Assembly: GCA_020621865.1 (NCBI GenBank)
Contig: JAHRYW010000005.1
Span: 107,663-171,662, forward strand
Direction of reading: 5' to 3'
Source of the DNA: Betaproteobacteria bacterium
GTDB lineage: Bacteria > Pseudomonadota > Gammaproteobacteria > Burkholderiales > Rhodocyclaceae
Length of the DNA stretch: 64,000 bases
Positions within the stretch are counted from its first letter, which is position 1, and the number at the start of each line of letters is the position of its first letter. The notes under the pieces were generated by a model, which made no database searches, was not told the origin of the DNA, and saw only the letters and a program-made list of their open reading frames with translations. A program made the translations under genes and the position numbers. Shown in pieces: positions 1,358 through 39,652 of the stretch.

Positions 1358-2675
1358 CGAAATCCGCCACCCCGATCAATTGTTCCGCATCGGCCGCCGG
1401 CAACGCCTCGACCTCCTTCAGCTTGCGCGACAACTGCCGCGTCCGCGTTTCCGCCTTGGCAATGCTGTTGCTCGCTTCGTCCAGCTTCTTTCGGGTATGC
1501 GCCAGCGCCTCGCCGAACTTGCCGAACTCGGTCTTGACGGCGCCGAGCACGGCCCAAACCTCGGCCGAACGCTGCTCGATGGCCAGCGTCCTAAAGCCCA
1601 TCTGCAGGCTGTTGAGCAGTGCCGCCAACGTCGTCGGCCCAGCCAGGCTGACCCGGTAGTCGCGCTGCAAGGTTTCGGCCAGTCCTGGCCGGCGCAGCGC
1701 CTCGGCATAGAGGCCTTCGAGCGGCAGGTAGAGCATCGCAAAGTCAGTCGTGTGCGGCGGCGAGACGTACTTCTCGTGGATGCTCTTCGCCTCGTTTTTC
1801 AGGCGCGTTTCGATGGCCCGCGAGGCCTCCTCGACGGCTGCAGGATCGGCCCGCTCCTGGGCGTCGAGCAGGCGCTGGTAATCCTCGATCGGATACTTGG
1901 CGTCGATCGGCAGCCACACCACGGCGCCGTCGTCCTTGCCCGGCAGGCGGATGGCGAAATCGACCCGCTCGTTGCTGCCCGGACGGGTCGCTACATTGGC
2001 GGCGAACTGGTCGGCGGTCAGCAACTGCTCAAGCAGCGCCGACAACTGCACCTCGCCCCAGGTGCCGCGCGTTTTCACATTGGTCAGCACGCGCTTCAGG
2101 TCGCCGACGCCGGCAGCCAACGTCTGCATCTCGCCCAGCCCGCGATGGACCTGCTCCAGCCGGTCGCTGACCAGCTTGAACGACTCGCCCAGGCGTTGCT
2201 CCAGCGTCGCGTGGAGTTTCTCGTCGACGGTGCGGCGCATCTCTTCCAACTTGTTGGCGTTATCGGCCTGGATCGCCGTCAGGCGCCCCTCGACGGTCAG
2301 CTTCAGACGTTCGAAACGCTCGTCGAGGCCAAGCGAGAAGCGGTTCAGCTCGCGGGCGAAGGCTTCCAGCCGCTCCGCCTGCAGGGTGCCGAACTGACCG
2401 ACCTGCGTCGTCACCGCCTGGCTCAGCAGATTGGCCGACTGCGCCCGCTCCTCACGGTCGCGGAAGGCCTCCTCGGCATCCTCGCGCCGGCCGCGCGCCA
2501 GCTCCTCGCGCAGTTCACGTTCGAGGCGCATCAAGCCTTTTTCTTGCGTCTCCTGCAAGGCCCGGAAGCGCGCTTCGTCGTCCTGTCGCCGATTGCCGCG
2601 CATCAACAAAGCCACCTGCAGCAGGATGACCACCACCATGCCGGCCACCAGGGCCAGCCCCATCGCTTCACTCAT
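1341..2675 (-). CDS. rmuC: DNA recombination protein RmuC
   Basis: A 444-residue member of the RmuC family, proteins linked to limiting inversions at short repeats. It has one N-terminal membrane segment (about residues 5-25), a long coiled coil rich in Arg, Glu and Leu (about 30-210), and then the nuclease-like RmuC core with KRVLTNVKTRGTWGEVQL, LPIDAKYPIEDYQRL and the conserved YLPLEGLYAEALRRPG. Length is typical. Start ATG at 2675 lies eight bases from the end of the upstream DUF748 gene, so the two are probably co-transcribed. Function in this organism is inferred from family membership. Confidence 0.95.
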   Translation of the reverse strand: MSEAMGLALVAGMVVVILLQVALLMRGNRRQDDEARFRALQETQEKGLMRLERELREELARGRREDAEEAFRDREERAQSANLLSQAVTTQVGQFGTLQAERLEAFARELNRFSLGLDERFERLKLTVEGRLTAIQADNANKLEEMRRTVDEKLHATLEQRLGESFKLVSDRLEQVHRGLGEMQTLAAGVGDLKRVLTNVKTRGTWGEVQLSALLEQLLTADQFAANVATRPGSNERVDFAIRLPGKDDGAVVWLPIDAKYPIEDYQRLLDAQERADPAAVEEASRAIETRLKNEAKSIHEKYVSPPHTTDFAMLYLPLEGLYAEALRRPGLAETLQRDYRVSLAGPTTLAALLNSLQMGFRTLAIEQRSAEVWAVLGAVKTEFGKFGEALAHTRKKLDEASNSIAKAETRTRQLSRKLKEVEALPAADAEQLIGVADFDGEDE

Positions 2676-2682
2676 TGTCAGC

Positions 2683-5600
2683 TCACTTCAGGGAGAAATC
2701 GGCGCGGCTGGCCTTCGCCCCGCCATTCTTGTCCTTATCGTCCGCCTCGACCTTCGGCGGCAGCAGGAAAATCCGTTCCGGCGGCACCTTGCCCTGCTCG
2801 ACCAGCCAGGCCTGGACCGTCTCGGCCCGCCGCGTCGCCAGCGCCCTCAGATCGTCGTCGCTGGCCGGGAAATTGGTCAGCATCAGCTTTTCCATTTCCT
2901 CAACCGGCAGTTCCTTCTGCAGGCCGATCATGTTGCGCGGCTTGGGGAACTTCGCTTCCTTGTAGGCCCGGGTCAAATAGACCTTGGTCTCCTCGGGTGC
3001 AATGACGATGTCGTCGAGCGATTTGCCTTCGCCGGACTTCTTCAGGTCTTTCAGTTTTTCGGCTTTCATCGCCCGTGCGATGGTGGCGCGCTTGATGCCT
3101 TCCTTGTCGGCTTCCGGATCGGCCCGGCCGGTGATTTCCAGCTTCAGCGAATTGCGCTCGTTGAGCGCCTTGGCCAGGGCTTCCAGCTTCTTGCCGGCCG
3201 CCTCGTTGATCGCCGCATAGCCGGCGACGAACTCGACGTTGGACAACTCGTCGCCACCGCCGAACAGGGAGCCGAGCAGCGCGAACGGCGAGGTCACCGC
3301 CTTGACGAAGAGATTGACGATAACCTTGATGACCAGGCCGCCAATCGAGAATTGCGGGTCGTCGAGGGAACCGGAAATCGGCAGGTTCAGGTCGATCTCG
3401 CCGCGGTTGTTCTTGAGCAGCGAAATGGCCAGGTTGACCGGGAGCTTGGTCGCATCCGGACTTTCGATCTTCTCGCCGAAAGTGAACTGGTCGATGAACA
3501 GGCGGTTTTCGGCCGCCAACTGGTTGTTCTCCAGTTTGTAGGCAACGTTCAGCGACAGTTTGCCCTTCTCGATCGCGTAGCCGGCGTATTTGCCGGAATA
3601 CGGGGAGAAACCGACCATATCCACGCCGGTGATGTCGGCCTTGAGGTCGAGGTAGGACTTGGCGGCCAGCGGATTCAGCTTGGCCAGGATCTGGACCGGT
3701 GCCGAGTTGGCATACTTGCCGCGAATCTCCAGGTCGGCCACGGTGTCGGCCGCCGATGACAGGCCAGTGACCCGCCCGCCCAGCTTGGTCAGGTTGACCG
3801 TGTAGTTGGGCTTGACGAAAAAGTCCGAGAAATTGACCGAGCCGTTCTGCAGCGTGATCTTGGCTATCTTGATCGGCACTGGCGGTTTGGCCGCCACGCT
3901 CTCCTTGCCGGCTTGCTTGCCGACTTCCTTGACTGCCGGCTTGGCATCGGCCAGCTTGGTCTCACCCGCCTTGACCTCCGGCTTGCTCGCATCCTTGACC
4001 GGCGCCGCTTCGCCGGCCGGCTTCTTGACGATGTCCGCGACGTTAAGCCGGCCTTCCTTGTTGAGGATCAGGCGCGAGTAGAAATCGGTCAGGGCGATTT
4101 CGCCGATATTGATCGCCATCGGCTCCAGGCGGAAATCAATACCGCCGAAATACAGCGATTTCCATTTCAGGAAATCCGCACTGTTCTGCTTGTCGACGGC
4201 AACCAGATCGCCCAGCGTAAAGGAGCCCTTGTAAGCAGCTTTCAGGCCGGCGGAATCGAGCTTGGCCGCGAGTTCGCCTTTGTTGGAGGCGAGGCCGCGG
4301 GTCAGCGAAACATTGAGGAACTGGCCGAAATACGGCTCGACCGGGACCAGCGGAATGCCCACCGTCTCAAGCTTGAGCGCCACGTCGAGCGGAAAGAGCT
4401 GCAAGCTGCCGTCGACCGTCAGGCTACCCTTCTTGTTGATCTGGCTCTTCAGCGCAATCGTGCCCTTCTTGTTCGGCTCGTTGGTCAGGCCCTGGGCGAC
4501 CAGGTTGAAGCCTTCAATCTCCTGCACCGCGGCCGGCTGTGTCGCCTGGTCGTCGAAGCGTAAGCCGAGATCATCGATACTCAGCTTGCCGACCTTGCCG
4601 ATCCACGCCTGTTTGCTCTCGGCCTTGGCTGGCGCCTTGGCCTTGCCATCGTTGCGGACCGTGGTGGCGCGGGCGGTTTTCAGCGCCGGCGGGCTGACCC
4701 ATTCGATCTTGCCGTCCTTGCTACGCTGCATGCGGGCACGGGTGCCGCGGTTGATCACCTCGGCGATATCGACGCGATGCGCCGCCAGGTCGACGCTGAT
4801 TCCCTTGAAAGCCATGTTTTCGACACGCAAGCGTTCGCCGAAATCAACCTGGTAACTGACCTCGCTGATCGCGAGCGGCTCGGCCATTTTGCTGTCGACC
4901 TTGCCGACACTGACCTGCAGCTTGCGCACCTGGCCTTCGACCGGCGTCGGAGTGGATTCGTCCTGCCAGCGGATCAGGCCATTGGTCAGCGCCACCCCAC
5001 CCAAGGACCACGCGAAGGGCTTGGCTGCTTCCGCTTGCGGGGCCGGTGCATCGGCCGCCGGCGCCTTGGCCAGTTTATCCAGCAAGCGCAGGACATTGAA
5101 CTCGCCCTGGCGATTGACGGCCAGCGAAACCTCCAGGCCATCGAGCGCAATCTGCTTGATTGCGACCAGACGGTTGATCGGATCGGCATTCTCCACCTCG
5201 ATATCGAGCCGCTTCCAGCCGGCCAGCGCCCGGCCGTCGCTTTCGGTCACGGCCAGACCGGAGAGGTGCAAGGCGCCGACTACGGACACCGAATAGACCT
5301 GATCGGAAACCTCCCTGAACATCGCCTTCAGTTCGCTGTCGAGCAGGCCGGCAGTCAGGCGGAAGGGCAGCGAATCGGGCAGATAGGGCTGCAAGCCGGC
5401 CAGGTCAAAGCGATCCAGGTCGAGGTTCAGTTGGCTTTCGCGGGACTCCGAGAACGGTTTGCTGTCCCCGGTCAGGGCCAGCGGCGAGCCGTTGATCACG
5501 GCCGAAAACGAAGGCTTGACGACAATCTCCGCCTGATAGGGCAGGCTGGAAACGAAAGGCAGCGCCAGGTTGATATCGCTGACGGTATGCTGCTTGCCCT

Positions 5601-31289: not shown

Positions 31290-32195
31290 TCAGCGCTCCC
31301 CGCCCCGCCATGCGGCCAGGGCCGCCGTTGCATCTTCCAGCGTGACCAGCCGTTTGATCCCGGGCACGTCAGCCAGCCGCCGGATACCACCGCCGCCCAC
31401 CCACAGCGCCACTTCATCCGGCAACGCCGCCCGTAGCTGTTGCAGCAGCATCGGTATCTGGCGCTGGGGAAAAGCCACCGAAAACGAGAGCGCGACGATA
31501 TCGGCACGATGGGCCGTCGCCGCACGGCTGATCTCGAGCAGCGGCATCTGCGTCCCCAGCGGGATGCACTCCGCCCCCTCCAGCGCGAACAGCGCTTCGA
31601 CCATCAACAGCCCCAGCACATGTTGCTCGTCCGGTACGCTGGTCAGCAGGATGCGCGGGTCGCGCGGGCCGGTTGGCAAGGTGGCGACCGCCTGGCGGAG
31701 CAAACGCTTGGTCAGTTCGGTGAACAGGTGTTCCTCGAAGACCTCGAAAGTGCCGCGCTCCCAGTATTCACCGACCTGACTGGTCAACGGCGCCACAGTG
31801 TCCTGGACAAAACCCTGCAGTCCCTGGCGGGCCAGACGCTGTTGCATGGCCTGCTGGTAAGCGGCGACGTCGTGCCGCTTGATCAGCGACAACAGTTCGT
31901 CGAGTTCGCTGGCGGCAACCGGATCGGCTGACCTGATCGGCTCCTTCCGGCGCGGCGCCAGCACGGCCAGTTCGGCGACCGGCGTCGCAATCAGCTTGCC
32001 AGGGCGATGCCCGGCATCCATCAGCCGCTTGATCAGGCGTAGCCGCTCGACCTGCTCGGGCGGATAGCAGCGCTCGCCGTTGGCGTCGCGCTCCGGTACG
32101 GGGAATCCATAGCGGCGTTCCCACATGCGCAGGACGTCCTTGGACAGGCCGGTATCGCGCTCGACAGCGGCGATATTGAAATGGGTGGCATTCAT
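31290..32195 (-). CDS. CarH/LitR-like B12-binding MerR-family regulator
   Basis: A 301-residue regulator. A MerR-type winged helix-turn-helix is at 8-75 (LSKDVLRMWERRYGFPVPERD). A helical bundle follows with the adenosylcobalamin-capping motif W-x9-E-H (W145, E155, H156), then a B12-binding Rossmann domain with E-x-H-x2-G (E190-Q-H192-V-L-G195). These residues and their spacing correspond to those in CarH photoreceptors, where light breaks the Co-C bond and the tetramer leaves DNA. ATG 32195 (MNATHFNIAA) is chosen over an upstream Met. Divergent from the gpx operon, with a CarH-like tandem operator in between. Light sensing itself is an inference from motifs. Confidence 0.88.
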   Translation of the reverse strand: MNATHFNIAAVERDTGLSKDVLRMWERRYGFPVPERDANGERCYPPEQVERLRLIKRLMDAGHRPGKLIATPVAELAVLAPRRKEPIRSADPVAASELDELLSLIKRHDVAAYQQAMQQRLARQGLQGFVQDTVAPLTSQVGEYWERGTFEVFEEHLFTELTKRLLRQAVATLPTGPRDPRILLTSVPDEQHVLGLLMVEALFALEGAECIPLGTQMPLLEISRAATAHRADIVALSFSVAFPQRQIPMLLQQLRAALPDEVALWVGGGGIRRLADVPGIKRLVTLEDATAALAAWRGGER

Positions 32196-32203
32196 ATTTG
32201 TCC

Positions 32204-32254
32204 TGTACAAACGTTAGACAAACCATTGACAAACGATTCTTTGATGTCTATCTT
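32204..32254 (+). promoter_or_regulatory. CarH-type 11-bp tandem operator with promoter
   Basis: Three head-to-tail 11-mers without gaps: TGTACAAACGT, TAGACAAACCA, TTGACAAACGA (32204-32236). The third contains the -35 box TTGACA (32226-32231). TATCTT at 32249-32254 follows at 17 bases. Three 11-bp direct repeats overlapping the -35 box is the layout known for CarH operators, so repression in the dark by the divergent regulator is expected. Confidence 0.75.
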
Positions 32255-32270
32255 ACGAACAAGAACTCGA

Positions 32271-32285
32271 TTTGTCCAGGACAAA
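32271..32285. promoter_or_regulatory. Perfect palindrome downstream of the gpx promoter
   Basis: TTTGTCC-A-GGACAAA, located in the expected 5' leader. It shares the GACAAA half-site with the tandem operator, and a similar inverted repeat (TTTGTCCTGTACAAA, 32197-32211) lies on the other side. It may be a second binding site or an mRNA hairpin. Confidence 0.5.
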
Positions 32286-32303: not shown

Positions 32304-32864
32304 ATGACCAAGCTGCCCAAAAAAATTCTTGCGCTGGCCGCCCTGGTTTCAGCCTGTCTCGCTGGCCCGGCCTACGCCGCCCCCTGCCCGCCCTTGCTGA
32401 ACCAAGCGCTGACCAGTTTGCAGGACGGCAAGCCAATGCCGCTCTGCCAATACGCCGGCAAGGTCATCCTGGTCGTCAATACCGCCAGCTACTGCGGCTT
32501 CACCTCGCAATACGACGGCCTGGAAAAGCTCTACGCCCGGCTCAAGGACAAGGGGCTGGTCGTGCTCGGTTTTCCGTCCAACGACTTTGGCGAACAGGAG
32601 CCGGGCAGCGAAAAGGAAATCGCCGAGTTCTGCCGCCTGACCTATGGCGTCGAGTTCCCGATGGCTGGCAAGACCGTGGTCAAGGGCAAGAACGCGCATC
32701 CCTTCTACCTCAGGCTGGCCGAGATCACCGACAGCCGCCCGAAGTGGAATTTCCACAAGTATCTGATTAACCGCGATGCCACGCAGGTCGTCGCCTTCGG
32801 CAGCTTCACCAAGCCGGACGATGCCGACCTGCTGAAGACCATCGACCGCTTCCTGGCCCAGTAA
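32304..32864 (+). CDS. Periplasmic glutathione peroxidase family protein
   Basis: A 186-residue peroxidase with signal peptide (ILALAALVSACLAGPAYA). The peroxidatic residue is Cys in NTASYCGFTSQY. The conserved GFPSNDFGEQEPG (Gln) and KWNFHKYLI (Trp-Asn) complete the tetrad. Reduces peroxides or lipid hydroperoxides, probably with thioredoxin as the reductant as in other Cys-type enzymes. AAGGA precedes the ATG at 32304. First gene of the operon behind the CarH-type operator. Confidence 0.93.
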   Translation: MTKLPKKILALAALVSACLAGPAYAAPCPPLLNQALTSLQDGKPMPLCQYAGKVILVVNTASYCGFTSQYDGLEKLYARLKDKGLVVLGFPSNDFGEQEPGSEKEIAEFCRLTYGVEFPMAGKTVVKGKNAHPFYLRLAEITDSRPKWNFHKYLINRDATQVVAFGSFTKPDDADLLKTIDRFLAQ

Positions 32865-32874
32865 GGAGACTGCC

Positions 32875-34203
32875 ATGACGACCAGAAAACGCATCGCCGT
32901 CGTCGGCGCCGGCATTTCCGGACTGGCCAGCGCCTGGCTGCTGAGCCGCCACCACGACGTCACGCTGTTCGAAGCCGGCAGCTACCTCGGTGGCCACACC
33001 AACACCGTCGACGTGACGCTCGAAGGCCGTACGCATCCGGTCGATACCGGCTTTCTCGTCTTCAACGAAAAAACCTATCCCAACCTGATCGCGCTGTTTG
33101 AGCACCTCGGCGTGGACAGCGTCGAGACCGAAATGTCCTTTGCCGTCAGCCTGGAGAATCCGCGCCTCGAATGGGCCGGCAGCAACCTGGCGACAATTTT
33201 CGGCCAGAAGCGCAACCTCGTTCGCCGCGAATTCTGGCGCATGCTGGCCGACATCCTGCGCTTCAACCGCGACAGCAACGCCTGGCTGCTCGCTCACCCC
33301 GACAACCGGCGCAGCCTGCGCGAATTCCTGTCCGAAGGTCGCTACTCGGCCGCCTTCGCCGACTGGTACCTGCTGCCGATGGCCGCCGCCATCTGGTCCT
33401 GCCCAACCGGCCAGATGCTCGACATGCCGCTCGCCACCTTCATCCGCTTTTGCCAGAACCACGGCCTGCTGCAGGTCTTCGACCGCCCGATGTGGCGCAC
33501 CGTGTATGGCGGCGGGCGCGAATACGTCCGCCAACTGGCCGCCGAAATCAAGGCCAACGGCTCGCACTGTCGCCTCGCCTGTCCGGTCAGCGCCGTCACC
33601 CGCGACGGCGGCGGCCTGCGCGTCACCCATGGCCGCGGCAGCGAAAGCTTCGATCAGGTCGTCATGGCCTGCCACAGCGACCAGTCGCTGGCCATCCTCG
33701 GCTTCACGGCCAGCGATGCCCAGCGCGAGGTGCTGTCGGCCATCCGCTACCAGCCCAATCGCGCCGTGCTGCACACCGACCCGGCCCTGCTGCCGCGCGA
33801 CCGCAAGCTGTGGTCGGCCTGGAACTACTTTGCCGCTGCCGGCCAGCCCGGCGAGCAGCCGGTCGGCGTCTCCTACCTGATCAACAAGCTGCAGCCGCTG
33901 CCGTTCCAGACGCCGGTCGTCGTCACCCTCAACCCGGCCCGCGAACCGGATCCGGCCAAGGTGCTGGCCGAATTCGACTACGCCCACCCGATCTTCGACG
34001 GCCCGGCCATCGCCGCGCAGCAGCGTCTGCGCGACCCGGCCAGCGGCATCCAGGGCGAGGGCGGCATCTGGCTGGCCGGCGCCTGGGGCAGCTACGGATT
34101 CCACGAAGACGGTCTCAAATCGGCGCTGCGCGTCGCCAACGGCCTGGGCATCCAGGCGCCGTGGCAAGCCGGCAGCGGCAGTTCGCAGCAAGCCCAGGCC
34201 TGA
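32875..34203 (+). CDS. FAD-dependent amine oxidase-like protein
   Basis: A 442-residue flavoprotein with the dinucleotide fold AVVGAGISGLASAW and the GG doublet SYLGGHTNTV near the N-terminus, and a closing FAD motif near IWLAGAWGSYGFHEDG. It belongs to the phytoene desaturase/amine oxidase-like group that always accompanies DUF1365 and Cfa-like genes. The reaction is unknown; in clusters that make modified or furan fatty acids such enzymes act on unsaturated or methylated acyl chains, which is only an analogy. Ten bases after gpx. Confidence 0.88.
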   Translation: MTTRKRIAVVGAGISGLASAWLLSRHHDVTLFEAGSYLGGHTNTVDVTLEGRTHPVDTGFLVFNEKTYPNLIALFEHLGVDSVETEMSFAVSLENPRLEWAGSNLATIFGQKRNLVRREFWRMLADILRFNRDSNAWLLAHPDNRRSLREFLSEGRYSAAFADWYLLPMAAAIWSCPTGQMLDMPLATFIRFCQNHGLLQVFDRPMWRTVYGGGREYVRQLAAEIKANGSHCRLACPVSAVTRDGGGLRVTHGRGSESFDQVVMACHSDQSLAILGFTASDAQREVLSAIRYQPNRAVLHTDPALLPRDRKLWSAWNYFAAAGQPGEQPVGVSYLINKLQPLPFQTPVVVTLNPAREPDPAKVLAEFDYAHPIFDGPAIAAQQRLRDPASGIQGEGGIWLAGAWGSYGFHEDGLKSALRVANGLGIQAPWQAGSGSSQQAQA

Positions 34204-34210
34204 CCCCGCC

Positions 34211-34975
34211 ATGACCGCCCGCCCCCGGCTCTTTCTCGGTAACGTGATGCACCGCCGCCTGCGGCCGGTGGTCAATGCCTTCGTCTATCCGGTGTTCTAC
34301 ATCCAGTTGCCGCTGCGCGATCTGGAATCCGCAATTTGCCCGTTTTTTGCCATCGACCGTAGCTATCTGCTCAGTTTCTGGCAAAAGGACCACGGCCCGC
34401 GCGACGGCAGCCCGCTGCTACCGTGGATCACCGCCCGCCTGCGCGAACGCGGCCTGCCCGACGACGGCGAGATCATCCTGCAGACCTTCCCCCGCCTGTT
34501 CGGCTACGTCTTCAACCCCGTCAGCTTCTGGTTCTGCCACGACCGCAGCGGGGCGCTGATTGCCGTGCTGGCCGAGGTCAACAACACCTTCGGCGGCACC
34601 CACGCCTACCTGCTGCACAACCCCGGCGGCGCGCCCCTGCGCGATGGCCAGTTACTGCGCGCCGACAAATGCTTCCATGTCTCGCCGTTCAACGAGATCG
34701 TCGGCGGCTACCGCTTCCGCTTCCATCTCGACCGGCCGGCCCAACTGGCCCGCATCGACTACGACGATGCCGACGGCGAACTGCTGCGCACCGCCATCGC
34801 CGGTAAACCGCGCGAGTGGCGTTCGAGCGCGCTGCTCGGCGCCTTCCTGAAAATGCCCGTCATGACGGCCGGCGTAATGCTGCGCATCCACTGGCAGGCC
34901 CTGAAACTCTGGCTCAAAGGCGTGCCCTTCCGTGGCGCCCGCGTCCCTCAACCTCTCCGGGAATCGACCAAATGA
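34211..34975 (+). CDS. DUF1365 family protein
   Basis: A 254-residue protein with the DUF1365 pattern: GNVMHRRLRPVVNAFVYPVF, QTFPRLFGYVFNPVSFWFC, EVNNTFGGTHAYLL and KCFHVSPFNEIVGGYRFRF. The function is unknown, but it is almost always between an amine oxidase-like gene and a Cfa-like gene, as here. A dispersed repeat copy lies in frame and encodes AICPFFAIDRS near residue 45. Stop overlaps the next start by ATGA. Confidence 0.92.
   Translation: MTARPRLFLGNVMHRRLRPVVNAFVYPVFYIQLPLRDLESAICPFFAIDRSYLLSFWQKDHGPRDGSPLLPWITARLRERGLPDDGEIILQTFPRLFGYVFNPVSFWFCHDRSGALIAVLAEVNNTFGGTHAYLLHNPGGAPLRDGQLLRADKCFHVSPFNEIVGGYRFRFHLDRPAQLARIDYDDADGELLRTAIAGKPREWRSSALLGAFLKMPVMTAGVMLRIHWQALKLWLKGVPFRGARVPQPLRESTK
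34331..34363 (+). repeat. Dispersed repeat, copy 7
   Basis: GCAATTTGCCC arm, T6 run, GCCATC and GACCGTAGCT (core diverges in the last bases). In frame inside the DUF1365 gene, using a different reading frame from copies 1, 2 and 9. Confidence 0.7.
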
Positions 34976-36156
34976 ACCATACGATGATCCTGCGCGGCGG
35001 CGAAACCCTGGCCCGCGACACCCGTCTGATTTTCGACCTGCTGGAGAACCTGCACGGTGGCCTGCTGGAAATCCGCCTGCCCAACGGCTGCTGCGCCTTG
35101 TTCGGCGACGGCGAACACCCCATTGCGCTCCACATCCACGACGAAGCGGTCTTCAGCCGGGTGCTGGCGCGCGGCGACATCGGCCTGGCCGAAGCCTACC
35201 TCGACGGTCTCTGGGACTGCCCCGACATCACCGGCCTGCTGACCCTGCTGGCGCGCAACCGCGCGGCACTCGGCAAAGCGGTGTACGGCTCGTGGCCGCG
35301 CCTGCTGGCGGCCCGCGTCCGGCACTGGCTCAACCGCAACAGCCGCATCGGCAGCCAACGCAACATCATGGCCCACTACGACCTGGGCAACGATTTCTAC
35401 AAACTCTGGCTGGACCCGAGCATGAGCTACTCGGCCGCCATCTACCGCGACGCCGATGACGGCACGCTGCAAACCGCCCAGCACGCCAAGTACCGCCGCA
35501 TCCTGCAACGGCTGAAGGCCGAACCGGGCGAGCGCGTGCTGGAAATCGGCTGCGGCTGGGGCGGCTTTGCCGAAATGGCCGTGGCGCAAGGTCTGGCCGT
35601 CACCGGCCTGACCCTGTCGCCGGCCCAGCTCGCCTGGGCGCGCAAGCGCGTTCCAGCCGCCGACCTGCGCCTGCAGGACTACCGCGACACGAACGAGCGC
35701 TTCGATCACATCGTCTCCATCGAAATGTTCGAAGCCGTCGGCGAACGCTTCTGGCCCGGCTATTTCAAGACCGTGGCCAAGGCGTTGAAGCCGGGCGGCC
35801 GGGCGGTGATCCAGAGCATCACCATCCGCGACGACCTGTTCCCCAGCTACCGCAAGGGCACCGACTTCATCCAGCAATACATCTTCCCCGGCGGCATGCT
35901 GCCATCGCGCAGTGCCTTCCGCGCCGCTGCCGCCCGGCAGGGGCTGGCCGTCCGTCACGAATACGCCTTCGGCCTCGACTACGCCCGCACCCTGGCCGAA
36001 TGGCGCCAGGCCTTCGAAGCCAACTGGCCGGCCATCGCCGCGCAAGGCTTCGACGACACCTTCCGTCGCCTCTGGCGAATGTACCTGTGCTACTGCGAGG
36101 CCGGCTTCCTGGCCGGCAACGTCGATGTCGTCCAGTTCGAACTTTCCCATCGCTGA
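34972..36156 (+). CDS. Cyclopropane-fatty-acid synthase-like methyltransferase
   Basis: A 394-residue SAM-dependent methyltransferase of the CFA/UfaM family. The N-terminal domain has ALHIHDEAVFSRVLARGDIG and AYLDGLWDC; then AHYDLGNDFYKLWLD. The SAM site is VLEIGCGWGGFAEMA, with SIEMFEAVGERFW and FIQQYIFPGGMLPS further on. It adds a methylene or methyl group to unsaturated acyl chains of phospholipids. In light- or singlet-oxygen-induced clusters of this composition the related enzyme (UfaM) starts furan fatty acid synthesis, so either product is possible. Confidence 0.9.
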   Translation: MNHTMILRGGETLARDTRLIFDLLENLHGGLLEIRLPNGCCALFGDGEHPIALHIHDEAVFSRVLARGDIGLAEAYLDGLWDCPDITGLLTLLARNRAALGKAVYGSWPRLLAARVRHWLNRNSRIGSQRNIMAHYDLGNDFYKLWLDPSMSYSAAIYRDADDGTLQTAQHAKYRRILQRLKAEPGERVLEIGCGWGGFAEMAVAQGLAVTGLTLSPAQLAWARKRVPAADLRLQDYRDTNERFDHIVSIEMFEAVGERFWPGYFKTVAKALKPGGRAVIQSITIRDDLFPSYRKGTDFIQQYIFPGGMLPSRSAFRAAAARQGLAVRHEYAFGLDYARTLAEWRQAFEANWPAIAAQGFDDTFRRLWRMYLCYCEAGFLAGNVDVVQFELSHR

Positions 36157-36170
36157 GCATCCCGGCTGCG

Positions 36171-36210
36171 AATGCTACGGTCGGCGGCAAAAAATGGCCA
36201 AAATCGAAAT
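36171..36210 (-). repeat. Dispersed repeat, copy 8, spanning a start codon
   Basis: Perfect core AATGCTACGGTC on the plus strand, then GGCGGCAAAAAATGGCCA. The ATG of the next gene is inside the repeat (36194-36196), so the repeat supplies the start codon and the first residues (MAKIEI). Confidence 0.88.
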
Positions 36211-36733
36211 CTTCTCGGCGCCGCGCCGTCGCCTGCTGGCGGCCCTAGCCGCGCTACCCTTGGTCGTCCGACCTATCGTCGCCCTGGCCAGCACCGACCC
36301 GACCACCGGCCTCGCCCGCTGGGGCAGCGGCGAATTCCGGCGCTTCGGCTTTCTCGTCTATGAAGCCACCCTGTGGGCCGGCGACGACCCGCAACGCCCA
36401 CCGCTGGCCCTGAAGCTCACCTACCGGCGCAACATCGCCGGCCAAGCCATTGCCGAAGCCAGCGTCAAGGAAATCCGCCAGCTCGGCCTGGCGGACGAAG
36501 CCACGCTAAAGCGCTGGGGCCTGCAAATGACCGCACTGTTCCCGGACGTCAAACCCGGCGACCAGATCACCGGCCACTACCGGGCCGAGGGCGCCGAATT
36601 CCGTTTCAACGACCGCCCACTCGGCCGCCTCGACGACCCGGCCTTCGCCCGCGCCTTCTTCGCCATCTGGCTCGACCCGAAGACCAGCGCACCCGACCTG
36701 CGCGCCGCGCTGCTCAAGCGCCCGGCAGCCTGA
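36194..36733 (+). CDS. Chalcone isomerase-like domain protein
   Basis: A 179-residue protein with a signal-like N-terminus (RRRLLAALAALPLVVRPIVALA) and a chalcone-isomerase-like fold region (RRFGFLVYEATLWAG, ALKLTYRRNIAGQAIAEASV, FPDVKPGDQITGHY, FFAIWLDPKTS). Bacterial members are thought to bind fatty acids or other lipids rather than flavonoids. The start and first residues come from dispersed repeat copy 8, and no Shine-Dalgarno is visible apart from the repeat's own GGCGGCAAAAA. Third lipid-related gene in the operon. Confidence 0.82.
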   Translation: MAKIEIFSAPRRRLLAALAALPLVVRPIVALASTDPTTGLARWGSGEFRRFGFLVYEATLWAGDDPQRPPLALKLTYRRNIAGQAIAEASVKEIRQLGLADEATLKRWGLQMTALFPDVKPGDQITGHYRAEGAEFRFNDRPLGRLDDPAFARAFFAIWLDPKTSAPDLRAALLKRPAA

Positions 36734-36734
36734 A

Positions 36735-37958
36735 ATGACCACCGGCCGCGTCCTCGCCTACGGCCTGCTCGGCCTGCCGCTCGCCTTCGCGGCGTTGCCG
36801 GTCTACGTCCATGTGCCGCGCTTCTACGCTGAAACGACCGGCCTGCCGCTGGCCCTGCTCGGCGTCGTCCTGCTCGGCGCCCGTTTGCTCGATGCCGGCA
36901 TCGACCCCTGGCTCGGCTGGCTGGCCGACCGCGTCTCCCGCCGGCGCATGCTCGCCCTCGCCCTGCTGCCCTTCGCCATCGGCTTCGTCGCCCTGCTCAA
37001 CCCGCCGAGTGCCTCGCCTGCCCTCTGGCTGCTCGCCTCACTTGCCCTGACTTATCTTGGCTTCTCGGCCGCCACCGTCGCCTACCAGGCCTGGGGCGCC
37101 GACCTCGGCCATGATGCCGGGGAGCGCACCCGGCTAACCGCTGCCCGCGAAGGCTTCGGCCTGCTCGGCGTGGTTCTCGCCGCGGCGCTGCCCGGCCTGC
37201 TCGCCAGCCACCTCGACGCAGGCATCGCCCGCCTGAGCTGGGTGCTGCCGCCGCTGTTGCTGATCGCCGCCGCGACCACCTTTTCGCGGGTCGCCGCTGG
37301 GCCGACCGTCGAAACGCTCAGCCAGCCGCTGCTGCCCAGCCTGCGCCGCGTCGTCGCCGATCCGGCCTTCCGCCGCCTGCTGCTGGTCTTCGTCGCCAAC
37401 GGCATCGCCGCCGCGCTGCCGGCCACGCTGTTCCTCTTTTTCGTCGCCGATGTGCTGCAACTGACCGCCGCCAGCGGCGCCCTGCTTGCCCTCTATTTCA
37501 TCGCCGGTGCCGCCTCGCTGCCACTCTGGGTACGCGCCGCCGCCCGCCATGGCCGGGTCGCTGCCTGGCTGGCGGCCATCGCCCTGTCGATCGCCGCCTT
37601 CGCCGGCGCCAGCCTGCTCGGCCCCGGCGATCTCTGGCCCTTCGCCGCCATCTGCCTGGCCTCCGGCCTGGCCCTCGGCGCCGACCTGACACTGCCCGCC
37701 GCCATGGCCGCCGACCTCGGCGAACGTCAGGGGCAGGCCGGTGCCTGCTTCGGCGTCTGGAACTTCGTCGCAAAACTCAACCTGGCGCTGGCCGCCGGTC
37801 TATCCCTGCCGCTGCTCGGCAGCCTTGGCTATGTGCCGGGCAGCGGCGCCGGCCTGCCTGCCCTGACTTTCGCCTACGCCCTGCTGCCACTCGCCTTCAA
37901 GGCCCTGGCCGGCCTGCTGCTCTGGCGCTGGCGCCATTTCCTGGAGAACATCCGATGA
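36735..37958 (+). CDS. MFS transporter of the stress operon
   Basis: A 407-residue 12-helix transporter with the MFS loop 2-3 motif (WLGWLADRVSRRRML) and GPH-like features (FSAATVAYQAWGADLG, AAREGFGLLG). Similar MFS genes are regularly found in the Cfa/DUF1365/DUF3833 cassette; the substrate is unknown, with a lipid or its precursor the natural guess. Starts one base after the preceding stop and overlaps the lipoprotein gene by ATGA. Confidence 0.85.
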   Translation: MTTGRVLAYGLLGLPLAFAALPVYVHVPRFYAETTGLPLALLGVVLLGARLLDAGIDPWLGWLADRVSRRRMLALALLPFAIGFVALLNPPSASPALWLLASLALTYLGFSAATVAYQAWGADLGHDAGERTRLTAAREGFGLLGVVLAAALPGLLASHLDAGIARLSWVLPPLLLIAAATTFSRVAAGPTVETLSQPLLPSLRRVVADPAFRRLLLVFVANGIAAALPATLFLFFVADVLQLTAASGALLALYFIAGAASLPLWVRAAARHGRVAAWLAAIALSIAAFAGASLLGPGDLWPFAAICLASGLALGADLTLPAAMAADLGERQGQAGACFGVWNFVAKLNLALAAGLSLPLLGSLGYVPGSGAGLPALTFAYALLPLAFKALAGLLLWRWRHFLENIR

Positions 37959-38476
37959 AACTCATGCTTGCTGCCGCCCTGTCGCTGGGCCTCGCCGGCT
38001 GTGCCGCGACCGGCGTCGAACAATACCGCGCCGAACAACCGGCGCTCGACCTCAAAACCTACATGAACGGCACGCTCGACGCCTGGGGCATGTTCCAGGG
38101 CCGCTCGGGCGAGGTCAAAAAGCGCTTCCACGTCGTCATCGAGGCCCGTTGGCAGGGCGATACCGGCGTGCTCGACGAGCAGTTCAAGTGGTCCGATGGC
38201 ACCACCTCGCGCCGGGTGTGGACGCTGACCCGGCAGGCCGATGGCAGCTTCCGCGGCAAGGCCGACGACGTGATCGGCGAGGCAATCGGCGAAGTCGCCG
38301 GCAATGCCCTGCGCTGGCGCTACGTGCTAGCCCTGCCGGTCGACGGCAAGGTCTATCACGTCGATTTCGACGACTGGATGTTCCTGATGGACGACAAGGT
38401 GATGCTGAACCGCTCGGCCATGTCGAAATGGGGCTTCCATCTCGGCGAAGTGACCCTGACCTTCGTCAAGCGATGA
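37955..38476 (+). CDS. DUF3833 lipoprotein
   Basis: A 173-residue lipoprotein with lipobox LAGC (Cys near residue 16) and the DUF3833 pattern (LDLKTYMNGTLDAWGMFQ, FKWSDGTTSRRVW, ALPVDGKVYHVDFDDWMF, MSKWGFHLGEVTLTF). Lipocalin-like lipid binding has been proposed for the family, but the function is not established. Overlaps both neighbours by four bases. Confidence 0.9.
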   Translation: MKLMLAAALSLGLAGCAATGVEQYRAEQPALDLKTYMNGTLDAWGMFQGRSGEVKKRFHVVIEARWQGDTGVLDEQFKWSDGTTSRRVWTLTRQADGSFRGKADDVIGEAIGEVAGNALRWRYVLALPVDGKVYHVDFDDWMFLMDDKVMLNRSAMSKWGFHLGEVTLTFVKR

Positions 38477-39228
38477 ACCCGGCCATCACCGACTGGAAAG
38501 GCAAGCGCGTCTGGCTGATCGGCGCGTCGAGCGGCATTGGCGCCGCGCTGGCCGGCGAACTGGCCCGCCGTGGCGCCCGCCTGGCGATCTCGGCGCGCAA
38601 CGCCCGCAAGCTGCAACGCATCGCCATCAACGGCGCCCTGCCGGTCCCCTGCGACGTTACCGACACCGACAGCCTGGCCGCCGCCCGGAGCAGCGTGCTG
38701 GGCGCCTTCGGCAGCATCGACCTGGTGATCTACCTGGCCGGCGACTACGTGCCGATGCGCGCCGACGACTTCAACCTGGCCGTCGCCGAGCAGATCATCA
38801 ACGTCAACTTCATCGCCGCCATGCATGTCGCCGCCGCCGTCCTGCCCGACCTCCGGCCCGGCGGCGGCATCGCCTTCGTGGCCAGCGTCGCCGGCTACCG
38901 TGGCCTGCCCAAGGCGCTGTGCTACGGGCCGGGCAAGGCGGCGCTGATTCACTTTGCCGAAGTCCTGCACCTCGATCTGGCGCCCAAGGGCATCGGCGTC
39001 TGGGTCATCAACCCCGGCTTCGTCGCCACGCCGCTGACCGCGCAGAACGATTTCTCCATGCCGGCGCTGCAAACGCCCGAAGAGGCGGCCAATGCTACGG
39101 TCGAAGGCTTTAAATCGGGAAATTTCGAAATCCATTTCCCGAAGCGCTTCACCCGCCTGATGAAACTGCTAGCCATCCTGCCCTACCGCTGGTATTTCCC
39201 GCTGATCCGCCGCTTGACCGGAGGCTGA
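38473..39228 (+). CDS. Short-chain dehydrogenase/reductase
   Basis: A 251-residue SDR with the nucleotide motif GASSGIG, an NxxG-type site (LAGDYV), the catalytic Ser in FVASVAGYRG and YxxxK in CYGPGK. The PGFVATPLT segment is typical. The substrate is unknown; it is part of the lipid-modification operon. A dispersed repeat copy encodes NATVEGFKSGNFEI near residue 207. Confidence 0.9.
   Translation: MNPAITDWKGKRVWLIGASSGIGAALAGELARRGARLAISARNARKLQRIAINGALPVPCDVTDTDSLAAARSSVLGAFGSIDLVIYLAGDYVPMRADDFNLAVAEQIINVNFIAAMHVAAAVLPDLRPGGGIAFVASVAGYRGLPKALCYGPGKAALIHFAEVLHLDLAPKGIGVWVINPGFVATPLTAQNDFSMPALQTPEEAANATVEGFKSGNFEIHFPKRFTRLMKLLAILPYRWYFPLIRRLTGG
39091..39130 (-). repeat. Dispersed repeat, copy 9
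   Basis: Perfect core AATGCTACGGTC on the plus strand, followed by a diverged arm ending in GGGAAATTTCG. In frame inside the SDR gene. Confidence 0.8.
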
Positions 39229-39229
39229 C

Positions 39230-39652
39230 ATGAGCATCGACACCCTGATTCGTTTCTACGAAACCCTGACCCCGGCCGACATCGCCCGCTTTCCCGAGTT
39301 CTATGCCGACGACGCCTTCTTCAAGGACCCGTTCAATGAAGTCCACGACGTCGCCGCCATCCAGCGCATCTTCAGCCACATGTTCAAGCAGGTCGGCGAA
39401 CCGCGCTTCGTGGTCGGCGAGCGCGTCGTCGATGCCCGCGGCGCCATGCTGGTGTGGACCTTCCATTTCCGCATCCGCCCGTGGTGCGGCGAACCGCTGA
39501 CCCTGCGCGGCGTCTCGCACCTCAAGTTCGACGCCCACGGCAAGGTCAATTACCACCGCGACTACTGGGACGCCGCCGAGGAGCTATACATGAAACTGCC
39601 CGGCCTGGGCCTGCTGATGCGCGGCCTGCAAAAGGCGCTGGGCAGCCGTTAG
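39230..39652 (+). CDS. NTF2-like (SnoaL-type) protein
   Basis: A 140-residue NTF2-like fold protein (LIRFYETLTPADIARFPEFYADDAFFKDPFNEV, DYWDAAEELYMKLP). Members bind small hydrophobic ligands or act as isomerases. It is the usual last gene of the SDR/DUF3833/MFS/Cfa cassette and begins two bases after the SDR stop. The operon probably ends here, 96 bases before nosF; no terminator hairpin is evident. Confidence 0.87.
   Translation: MSIDTLIRFYETLTPADIARFPEFYADDAFFKDPFNEVHDVAAIQRIFSHMFKQVGEPRFVVGERVVDARGAMLVWTFHFRIRPWCGEPLTLRGVSHLKFDAHGKVNYHRDYWDAAEELYMKLPGLGLLMRGLQKALGSR

Follow-up and report, generated by a model that had tools for sequence, protein, structure and literature searches.

What is known of CarH-type receptors comes mainly from their control of carotenoid genes. 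The 64-kb window analysed here (the whole stretch of DNA, 64,000 nucleotides) encodes a MerR-type regulator that a first-pass annotation had taken for a CarH-like B12 photoreceptor, transcribed divergently from an operon that begins with a glutathione peroxidase gene. This locus raises the questions of whether the protein is a cobalamin-dependent, light-released repressor, which DNA sites it recognises and which genes it governs.

The regulator has the domains and fold of CarH

The regulator gene occupies the following position in the window.

31290..32195, minus strand: CarH/LitR-type regulator (Pfam, phmmer, residue map and conservation, AlphaFold2, Foldseek)

The open reading frame starts with an ATG at 32195 on the minus strand and encodes 301 amino acids, arranged as a MerR DNA-binding domain, a B12-binding_2 four-helix bundle and a B12-binding Rossmann domain. 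MerR_1 (4.8e-14), B12-binding_2 and B12-binding each score above the Pfam cut-off, and the N-terminal MerR domain contains the RxWERRY recognition helix (R23-M-W25-E-R-R-Y29). Using phmmer, we found the closest solved relatives to be the Thermus CarH entries (2e-29). When the AlphaFold2 model of the regulator (pLDDT 88) was compared with the PDB by Foldseek, CarH structures filled all fifty top places (best E 1e-18, to 5c8d), and the cobalamin domain matched CarH with a TMt of about 0.8 and an rmsd of about 3 Å (TMt 0.85 for 5c8a). The CarH family NF052513 gave the best NCBIfam match, yet at 124.6 bits against a curated cut-off of 400, which is a naming threshold and not a biochemical feature. 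The proposed CarH-like identity is thus supported by CarH-type domains, by the fold and by the ligand residues described below; in a finished Azoarcus genome record, the homologue is labelled merely 'MerR family'. We saw only one homologue of the regulator in the source genome (G000). The related genomes G304, G313 and G338 have one further homologue each, 39-42% identical.

Ligand residues are conserved while light-state residues differ from Thermus CarH

To place the cobalamin pocket, we aligned the regulator with Thermus thermophilus CarH (TtCarH), and W145, E155, H156, E190, H192 and G195 align with W131, E141, H142, E175, H177 and G180, respectively. The alignment of 110 loci (the window plus 109 relatives) shows no change at W145, E155, E190 or G195 and a single exception each at H156 and H192, so the motifs W145-x9-E155-H156 and E190-x-H192-x2-G of the first-pass annotation were placed exactly and are near-invariant. 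An intact Wx9EH is the stated criterion separating CarH from the B12-independent CarA (PMC9304148), and this adenosyl cap is intact in the regulator (W145...E155-H156). Compared with the published B12 motif of CarH, D/ExHx2G-x41-SxT/V-x22-27-GG (PMC9304148), the regulator reads E190xH192x2G195, x41, S237xS239, x27, G267G268; the spacing is exact and the single deviation is SxS for SxT/V.

The residues associated with the light state are different. TtCarH His132, which directly follows the Trp, corresponds to Glu146 in the regulator, and this Glu is shared by 68 of 69 Rhodocyclales sequences, even though the residue after it varies; more distant relatives mostly have Met, Ala or Val. In TtCarH, His132 is required for full light-driven break-up of the tetramer, and the H132A variant is mostly tetrameric after light (PMC10442372), while other tested cobalamin photoreceptors carry Arg, Gln or Tyr at this position (PMC11796333). 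A His after the Trp, and with it the bis-His light state, is common but not universal in CarH and class I LitR. Likewise, the Arg176-Asp201 dimer pair of TtCarH is Gln191/Gln216 in the regulator, such a charged interface pair being usual, not universal, in the same proteins. Of the published light signature of cobalamin photoreceptors (GxxW, EH, GxxH, GxxxP; PMC11796333), GxxW, EH and GxxxP were found and GxxH is replaced by DxxH (D189xxH). Hence, the earlier statement that the protein has the residues used by CarH to bind adenosylcobalamin and sense light holds for the ligand residues and was too strong for light sensing. With Glu146 in place of His132, the bis-His form of TtCarH is not available as the light state, which must be reached by another route; with the dimer salt bridge lost as well, it must differ from that of TtCarH.

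The loss of His132 and of the Arg176-Asp201 pair, together with the change of GxxH to DxxH, would also fit a CarA-like repressor that keeps the cobalamin fold, works without light-cleavable adenosylcobalamin and leaves its operator in response to a second protein or to oxidative stress; Myxococcus CarA binds B12 without needing it (PMC8156234, PMC9304148). However, CarA is devoid of the Trp of Wx9EH and its flanking residues, whereas Trp145 is invariant here and accompanied by EH and the lower His, and such conservation of the pocket is hard to explain without an adenosyl ligand. We therefore regard a CarA-like repressor as unlikely.

The divergent operon resembles a furan-fatty-acid gene cluster

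The operon on the opposite strand comprises nine genes.

32304..32864, plus strand: glutathione peroxidase (gpx), optional first gene (Pfam GSHPx)
32875..34203, plus strand: FAD-dependent amine-oxidase/phytoene-desaturase-like protein, putatively UfaD-like (Pfam Amino_oxidase; carotenoid-desaturase-like matches; UfaD description and gene order, PMC7380195)
34211..34975, plus strand: DUF1365 protein, putatively UfaO-like by position (Pfam DUF1365; between the UfaD-like and UfaM-like genes)
34963..36156, plus strand: cyclopropane-synthase-type SAM methyltransferase, putatively UfaM-like (Pfam CMAS)
36134..36733, plus strand: chalcone-isomerase-like protein (Pfam Chalcone_3; syntenic)
36735..37958, plus strand: MFS_2 transporter (Pfam; syntenic)
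37955..38476, plus strand: DUF3833 protein (Pfam; syntenic)
38467..39228, plus strand: short-chain dehydrogenase, SDR (Pfam; syntenic)
39230..39652, plus strand: SnoaL-like protein, last conserved operon gene (Pfam; syntenic)

The gene order from the FAD oxidoreductase through the SnoaL-like gene is conserved across Rhodocyclales and several Burkholderiales loci, and gpx is missing at the regulator locus in about a third of relatives. The name 'gpx operon' given earlier is too strong; the constant core consists of the FAD oxidoreductase, DUF1365 and CFA-type methyltransferase genes and those downstream. In Rhodopseudomonas, ufaD, ufaO and ufaM are furan-fatty-acid genes (PMC7380195), and the first three core genes fit their description in domain type and order. 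By this analogy, we infer that the divergent operon is a furan-fatty-acid (ufaD-ufaO-ufaM-like) operon.

The whole regulator-ufa locus also lies on pAZKH, a 738-kb plasmid of Azoarcus sp. KH32C (L196); this was the one relative in our plasmid search, and it is annotated there only as a MerR regulator and generic enzymes. In genome G319, two regulator-gpx-ufa loci (L147 and L148) lie near both ends of one contig, and both regulator copies contain stop codons, possibly assembly or read errors. We also considered, and rejected, control by Sigma-E/ChrR. A search of 21 genomes gave no ChrR above the cut-off, and this speaks against the operon being under the usual singlet-oxygen sigma control.

Direct repeats and palindromes cover two divergent promoters

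Between the regulator gene and gpx, we mapped the following elements.

32197..32211, plus strand: palindrome E1, TTTGTCCTGTACAAA, includes repeat 1; on the minus strand, its AGGA likely serves as the regulator's ribosome-binding site as well (promoter alignment)
32204..32214, plus strand: direct repeat 1, TGTACAAACGT (TnnACA kept in 58 of 65 relatives)
32215..32225, plus strand: direct repeat 2, TAGACAAACCA (kept in 52 of 65 relatives)
32226..32236, plus strand: direct repeat 3, TTGACAAACGA, includes the operon -35 box TTGACA at 32226-32231 (pattern and promoter scan)
32249..32254, plus strand: operon -10 box TATCTT, 17-bp spacer (promoter scan; 44 of 65 relatives have TATCTT at this offset)
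32250..32278, minus strand: candidate divergent regulator promoter, TGGACA (32278-32273), 17 bp, TAAGAT (32255-32250) (independent scan)
32271..32285, no strand assigned: palindrome E2, TTTGTCCAGGACAAA (TTTGTCYWRGACAAA), over the regulator's own -35 (0 of 100 shuffles)

The three gapless 11-bp repeats with the consensus TNKACAAACSW that had been read from this promoter were confirmed at 32204-32236, and all three units match the published CarH repeat nnnnTnnACAn (PMC9304148). A triple TnnACA at 11-bp steps has a single occurrence in the 64-kb window and none in 100 dinucleotide shuffles; the whole 2.9-Mb assembly contains one copy of a stricter form. The -35 box TTGACA inside the last repeat was also detected by an independent promoter scan, as TTGACA-17-TATCTT. 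We aligned 67 Rhodocyclales promoters on this -35 box, which gave in outline TTTGTCCTgaACAAA.gtTaGACAAAc.gTTGACA, 17 bp, TATcTTACGAACAAa, 7 bp, TTTGTCtAGGACAAA (n = 67); removal of duplicates left 65 relatives, in 50 of which all three repeats are intact. The conservation of repeat 2 is the cleanest evidence for an operator, because this unit overlaps neither the -35 and -10 boxes nor the ribosome-binding site; in some relatives it is degenerate. At three loci (L052, L080 and L094), the step from repeat 2 to repeat 3 is 12 bp, not 11, with the promoter spacing intact, and these are natural variants that bear on repeat phasing.

On the minus strand, we assign TGGACA-17-TAAGAT as the probable promoter of the regulator gene itself; TRGACA is present in 64 and TAAGAT in 44 of the 65 relatives, and the -10 boxes of the two divergent promoters overlap. 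By their sequence, the operon and regulator promoters are both sigma-70-like. E2 lies at an identical offset in 63 of the 65 relatives, and its position over the -35 of the regulator's own promoter would imply autoregulation. The halves of the palindromes are the same NnnACAAA unit as in the direct repeats. Of 39 relatives of less than 66% identity, 29 have the palindrome core TGTCnWnGACA upstream (shuffle mean 0.07) and 10 have a TTGACA behind the core in 11-bp phase (shuffle 0), so a palindrome with an in-phase direct repeat is kept more widely than the triple repeat.

Two other readings were rejected. Taking the conserved TTTGTCC by repeat 1 as a mere ribosome-binding site fails to explain E2, and the sites of distant relatives are often far from the start codon. 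Similarly, a chance origin of the repeats and palindrome was rejected on the basis of the shuffles, reversed-pattern controls and the co-occurrence described below. With regard to the 'complete tandem operator' of the first-pass annotation, the CarH-type repeats over the -35 are indeed conserved, but the palindrome is the element conserved most deeply, and that account, correct for the repeats, had missed the divergent promoter of the regulator, the palindrome at 32271-32285 and the palindromic surroundings of repeat 1 (32197-32211).

The palindrome recurs at a photolyase locus and co-occurs with the regulator

We used pattern searches to locate other sites in the genomes. The only other perfect palindrome in the source genome, TTTGTCCTAGACAAA, lies at 62710-62724 of contig 4 (position 4211 of L161), with a lipocalin-DUF2256-DPRP photolyase operon on one side and a divergent SDR gene on the other (L161 = G000:C4:58500-67000, 1947-5062). 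Palindromes were found at the photolyase and/or SDR locus in G000, G301, G304, G305, G316, G329 and G333, and in the six genomes other than the source they precede all or some of the lipocalin, DUF2256, photolyase and SDR genes. In most of these six, as judged by eye, a -35-like TRGACA belonging to the SDR promoter lies under the palindrome, and a -10-like CAATAW follows after 17 bp. Judging from the shared site, the lipocalin-DUF2256-photolyase/SDR locus is a probable second target of the regulator, and the case for light control is strengthened because a photolyase operon carries the same operator palindrome.

Other occurrences were also recorded. At about 4002 of L190 (G314:C11:247600-255600), the palindrome TTTGTCCTGGACAAA separates a DUF3429-like gene from one that, by eye, resembles a BLUF blue-light-sensor gene, and at 4078 of L183 (G315:C7:4000-12000) a palindrome is followed about 30 bp downstream by a plausible start codon of a lipoprotein-like gene. 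The source genome has a second, classical photolyase gene (PF00875; G000:C16:100593-101069), and no exact palindrome was reported near it.

The photolyase sites consist of the palindrome without tandem repeats, as would be expected if E1, E2 and the photolyase site were bound by a different regulator and the CarH-like protein owned the direct repeats only; this would be compatible with our preferred reading of the main operon and would drop photolyase from the regulon. The distribution of the sites argues otherwise. Of the genomes tested, 19 of the 20 that have the regulator also have a palindrome with the canonical centre, against none of the 24 that lack it (p = 1e-11), 2 of these 24 having a palindrome match with another centre. 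Within the genus (41 genomes), 32 of the 35 genomes with the regulator contain the triple repeat, and none of the 6 without it do (p = 2e-5); since the centre was defined after the sites had been seen and the genomes are related, these p-values are guides only. Given also that both palindrome halves are the NnnACAAA unit of the direct repeats and that a single homologue of the regulator was seen in the source genome, we consider a separate palindrome-binding regulator very unlikely.

Discussion

Homology, the conservation of motifs, promoters and operator, the co-occurrence of operator and regulator, and the second operator site were all established by computation, and they lead us to regard the protein as probably an adenosylcobalamin-binding CarH/LitR repressor that shuts off the ufa, photolyase and its own genes in the dark and releases them in the light. 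By analogy with the family, the regulator would bind adenosylcobalamin, for which the source genome (75% complete) encodes a BtuR-type cobalamin adenosyltransferase along with four cobalamin riboswitches. In the dark, both promoters would be shut by a cobalamin-bound oligomer, which at the divergent operon would cover the -35 by sitting on E1 plus direct repeats 2 and 3, and at the regulator gene would cover the -35 by sitting on E2; it would also occupy the single palindrome before the photolyase/SDR locus. Once green or blue light had broken the Co-C bond, the oligomer would fall apart or rearrange, allowing transcription of the regulator gene, the photolyase operon and the furan-fatty-acid operon (with gpx) as a photo-oxidative defence; the functions of the enzymes are likewise predicted. 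The main weakness of this dark-repressor reading is that both His132 and the dimer salt bridge are missing. More tentatively, a betaproteobacterial branch of CarH may exist in which Glu146 or another carboxylate takes the upper cobalt position after photolysis, a dimer grips the palindrome and in-phase direct repeats, and B12 runs a photo-oxidative regulon of the type that Pseudomonas runs with LOV proteins. Our literature search found no experiment showing cobalamin binding or light response for any member of the regulator's clade, nothing on the clade, on DUF1365 with MerR or on a RegPrecise-type reconstruction, and no paper devoted to the Burkholderia class III LitR.

Several known systems invite comparison. 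Thermus thermophilus CarH (PDB 5C8D/5C8E/8C31) shares domain order, fold, Wx9EH and the lower-ligand motif with the regulator, and three 11-bp repeats with the -35 within one of them with the window. In contrast, identity is about 30%, Glu146 and Gln191/Gln216 stand for His132 and Arg176/Asp201, and Thermus CarH controls carotenoid genes, whereas the predicted regulon here consists of lipid and photolyase genes, with added palindromes. For CarA/CarH of Myxococcus xanthus, the crt promoter is described as having both inverted and direct repeats over its TTGACA -35; there, however, the inverted repeats fade among relatives and the direct repeats carry binding (PMC9304148), while here the palindrome is most conserved. 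The core furan-fatty-acid genes are also shared in kind with the Rhodobacter Sigma-E/ChrR singlet-oxygen regulon, as is the link to light-related stress (PMC7380195, PMC6852236), but the Rhodobacter ufa genes are under the control of an ECF sigma factor and ChrR, whereas here no ChrR scored above the cut-off (21 genomes) and the promoters look sigma-70-like.

In its predicted targets, the regulator resembles class II LitR of Pseudomonas (PplR of P. putida and PmlR2 of P. mendocina, with a short LOV partner), which controls photolyase, cryB, SDR and UfaM genes through the LOV protein; repression of photolyase, FAD oxidoreductase, SDR and UfaM-type genes is shared, and we count as a further likeness its sites, located at the -35 and downstream of the start of transcription (PMC9758184). 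This resemblance, and the palindrome beside a BLUF-like gene in one related genome (L190), would suit a LitR-type repressor that takes its light signal from a partner photoreceptor (LOV or BLUF). Class II LitR, however, has no intact B12 domain and keeps the four-helix domain only, recognises TGTACA-N12-TGTACA and leaves light sensing to the LOV protein, whereas the regulator has an intact Rossmann B12 domain above the Pfam cut-off (PF02310, with the lower-ligand His), a domain content that rules out class II identity, and Pfam found no LOV gene within the operon. A partner-driven LitR is thus highly improbable. The conserved pocket and the mostly tetrameric H132A TtCarH after light (PMC10442372) would also be compatible with a sensor of cellular adenosylcobalamin level that represses when the cofactor is plentiful, but photolyase and photo-oxidative lipid genes follow a light logic, the palindromes examined had no recognisable cobalamin gene next to them and the genome already employs cobalamin riboswitches, which makes such a sensor the least credible reading of all.

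If the adenosylcobalamin-dependent dark repressor is the right reading, a CarH-type sensor appears to govern furan-lipid synthesis and photolyase in a large betaproteobacterial group (relatives of Dechloromonas, Azonexus and Accumulibacter). The conserved Glu in place of His132 provides a natural test of whether CarH needs bis-His coordination to respond to light, and with the operator sites known exactly, light control can be tested directly in strains in culture, for example of Dechloromonas or Azonexus.
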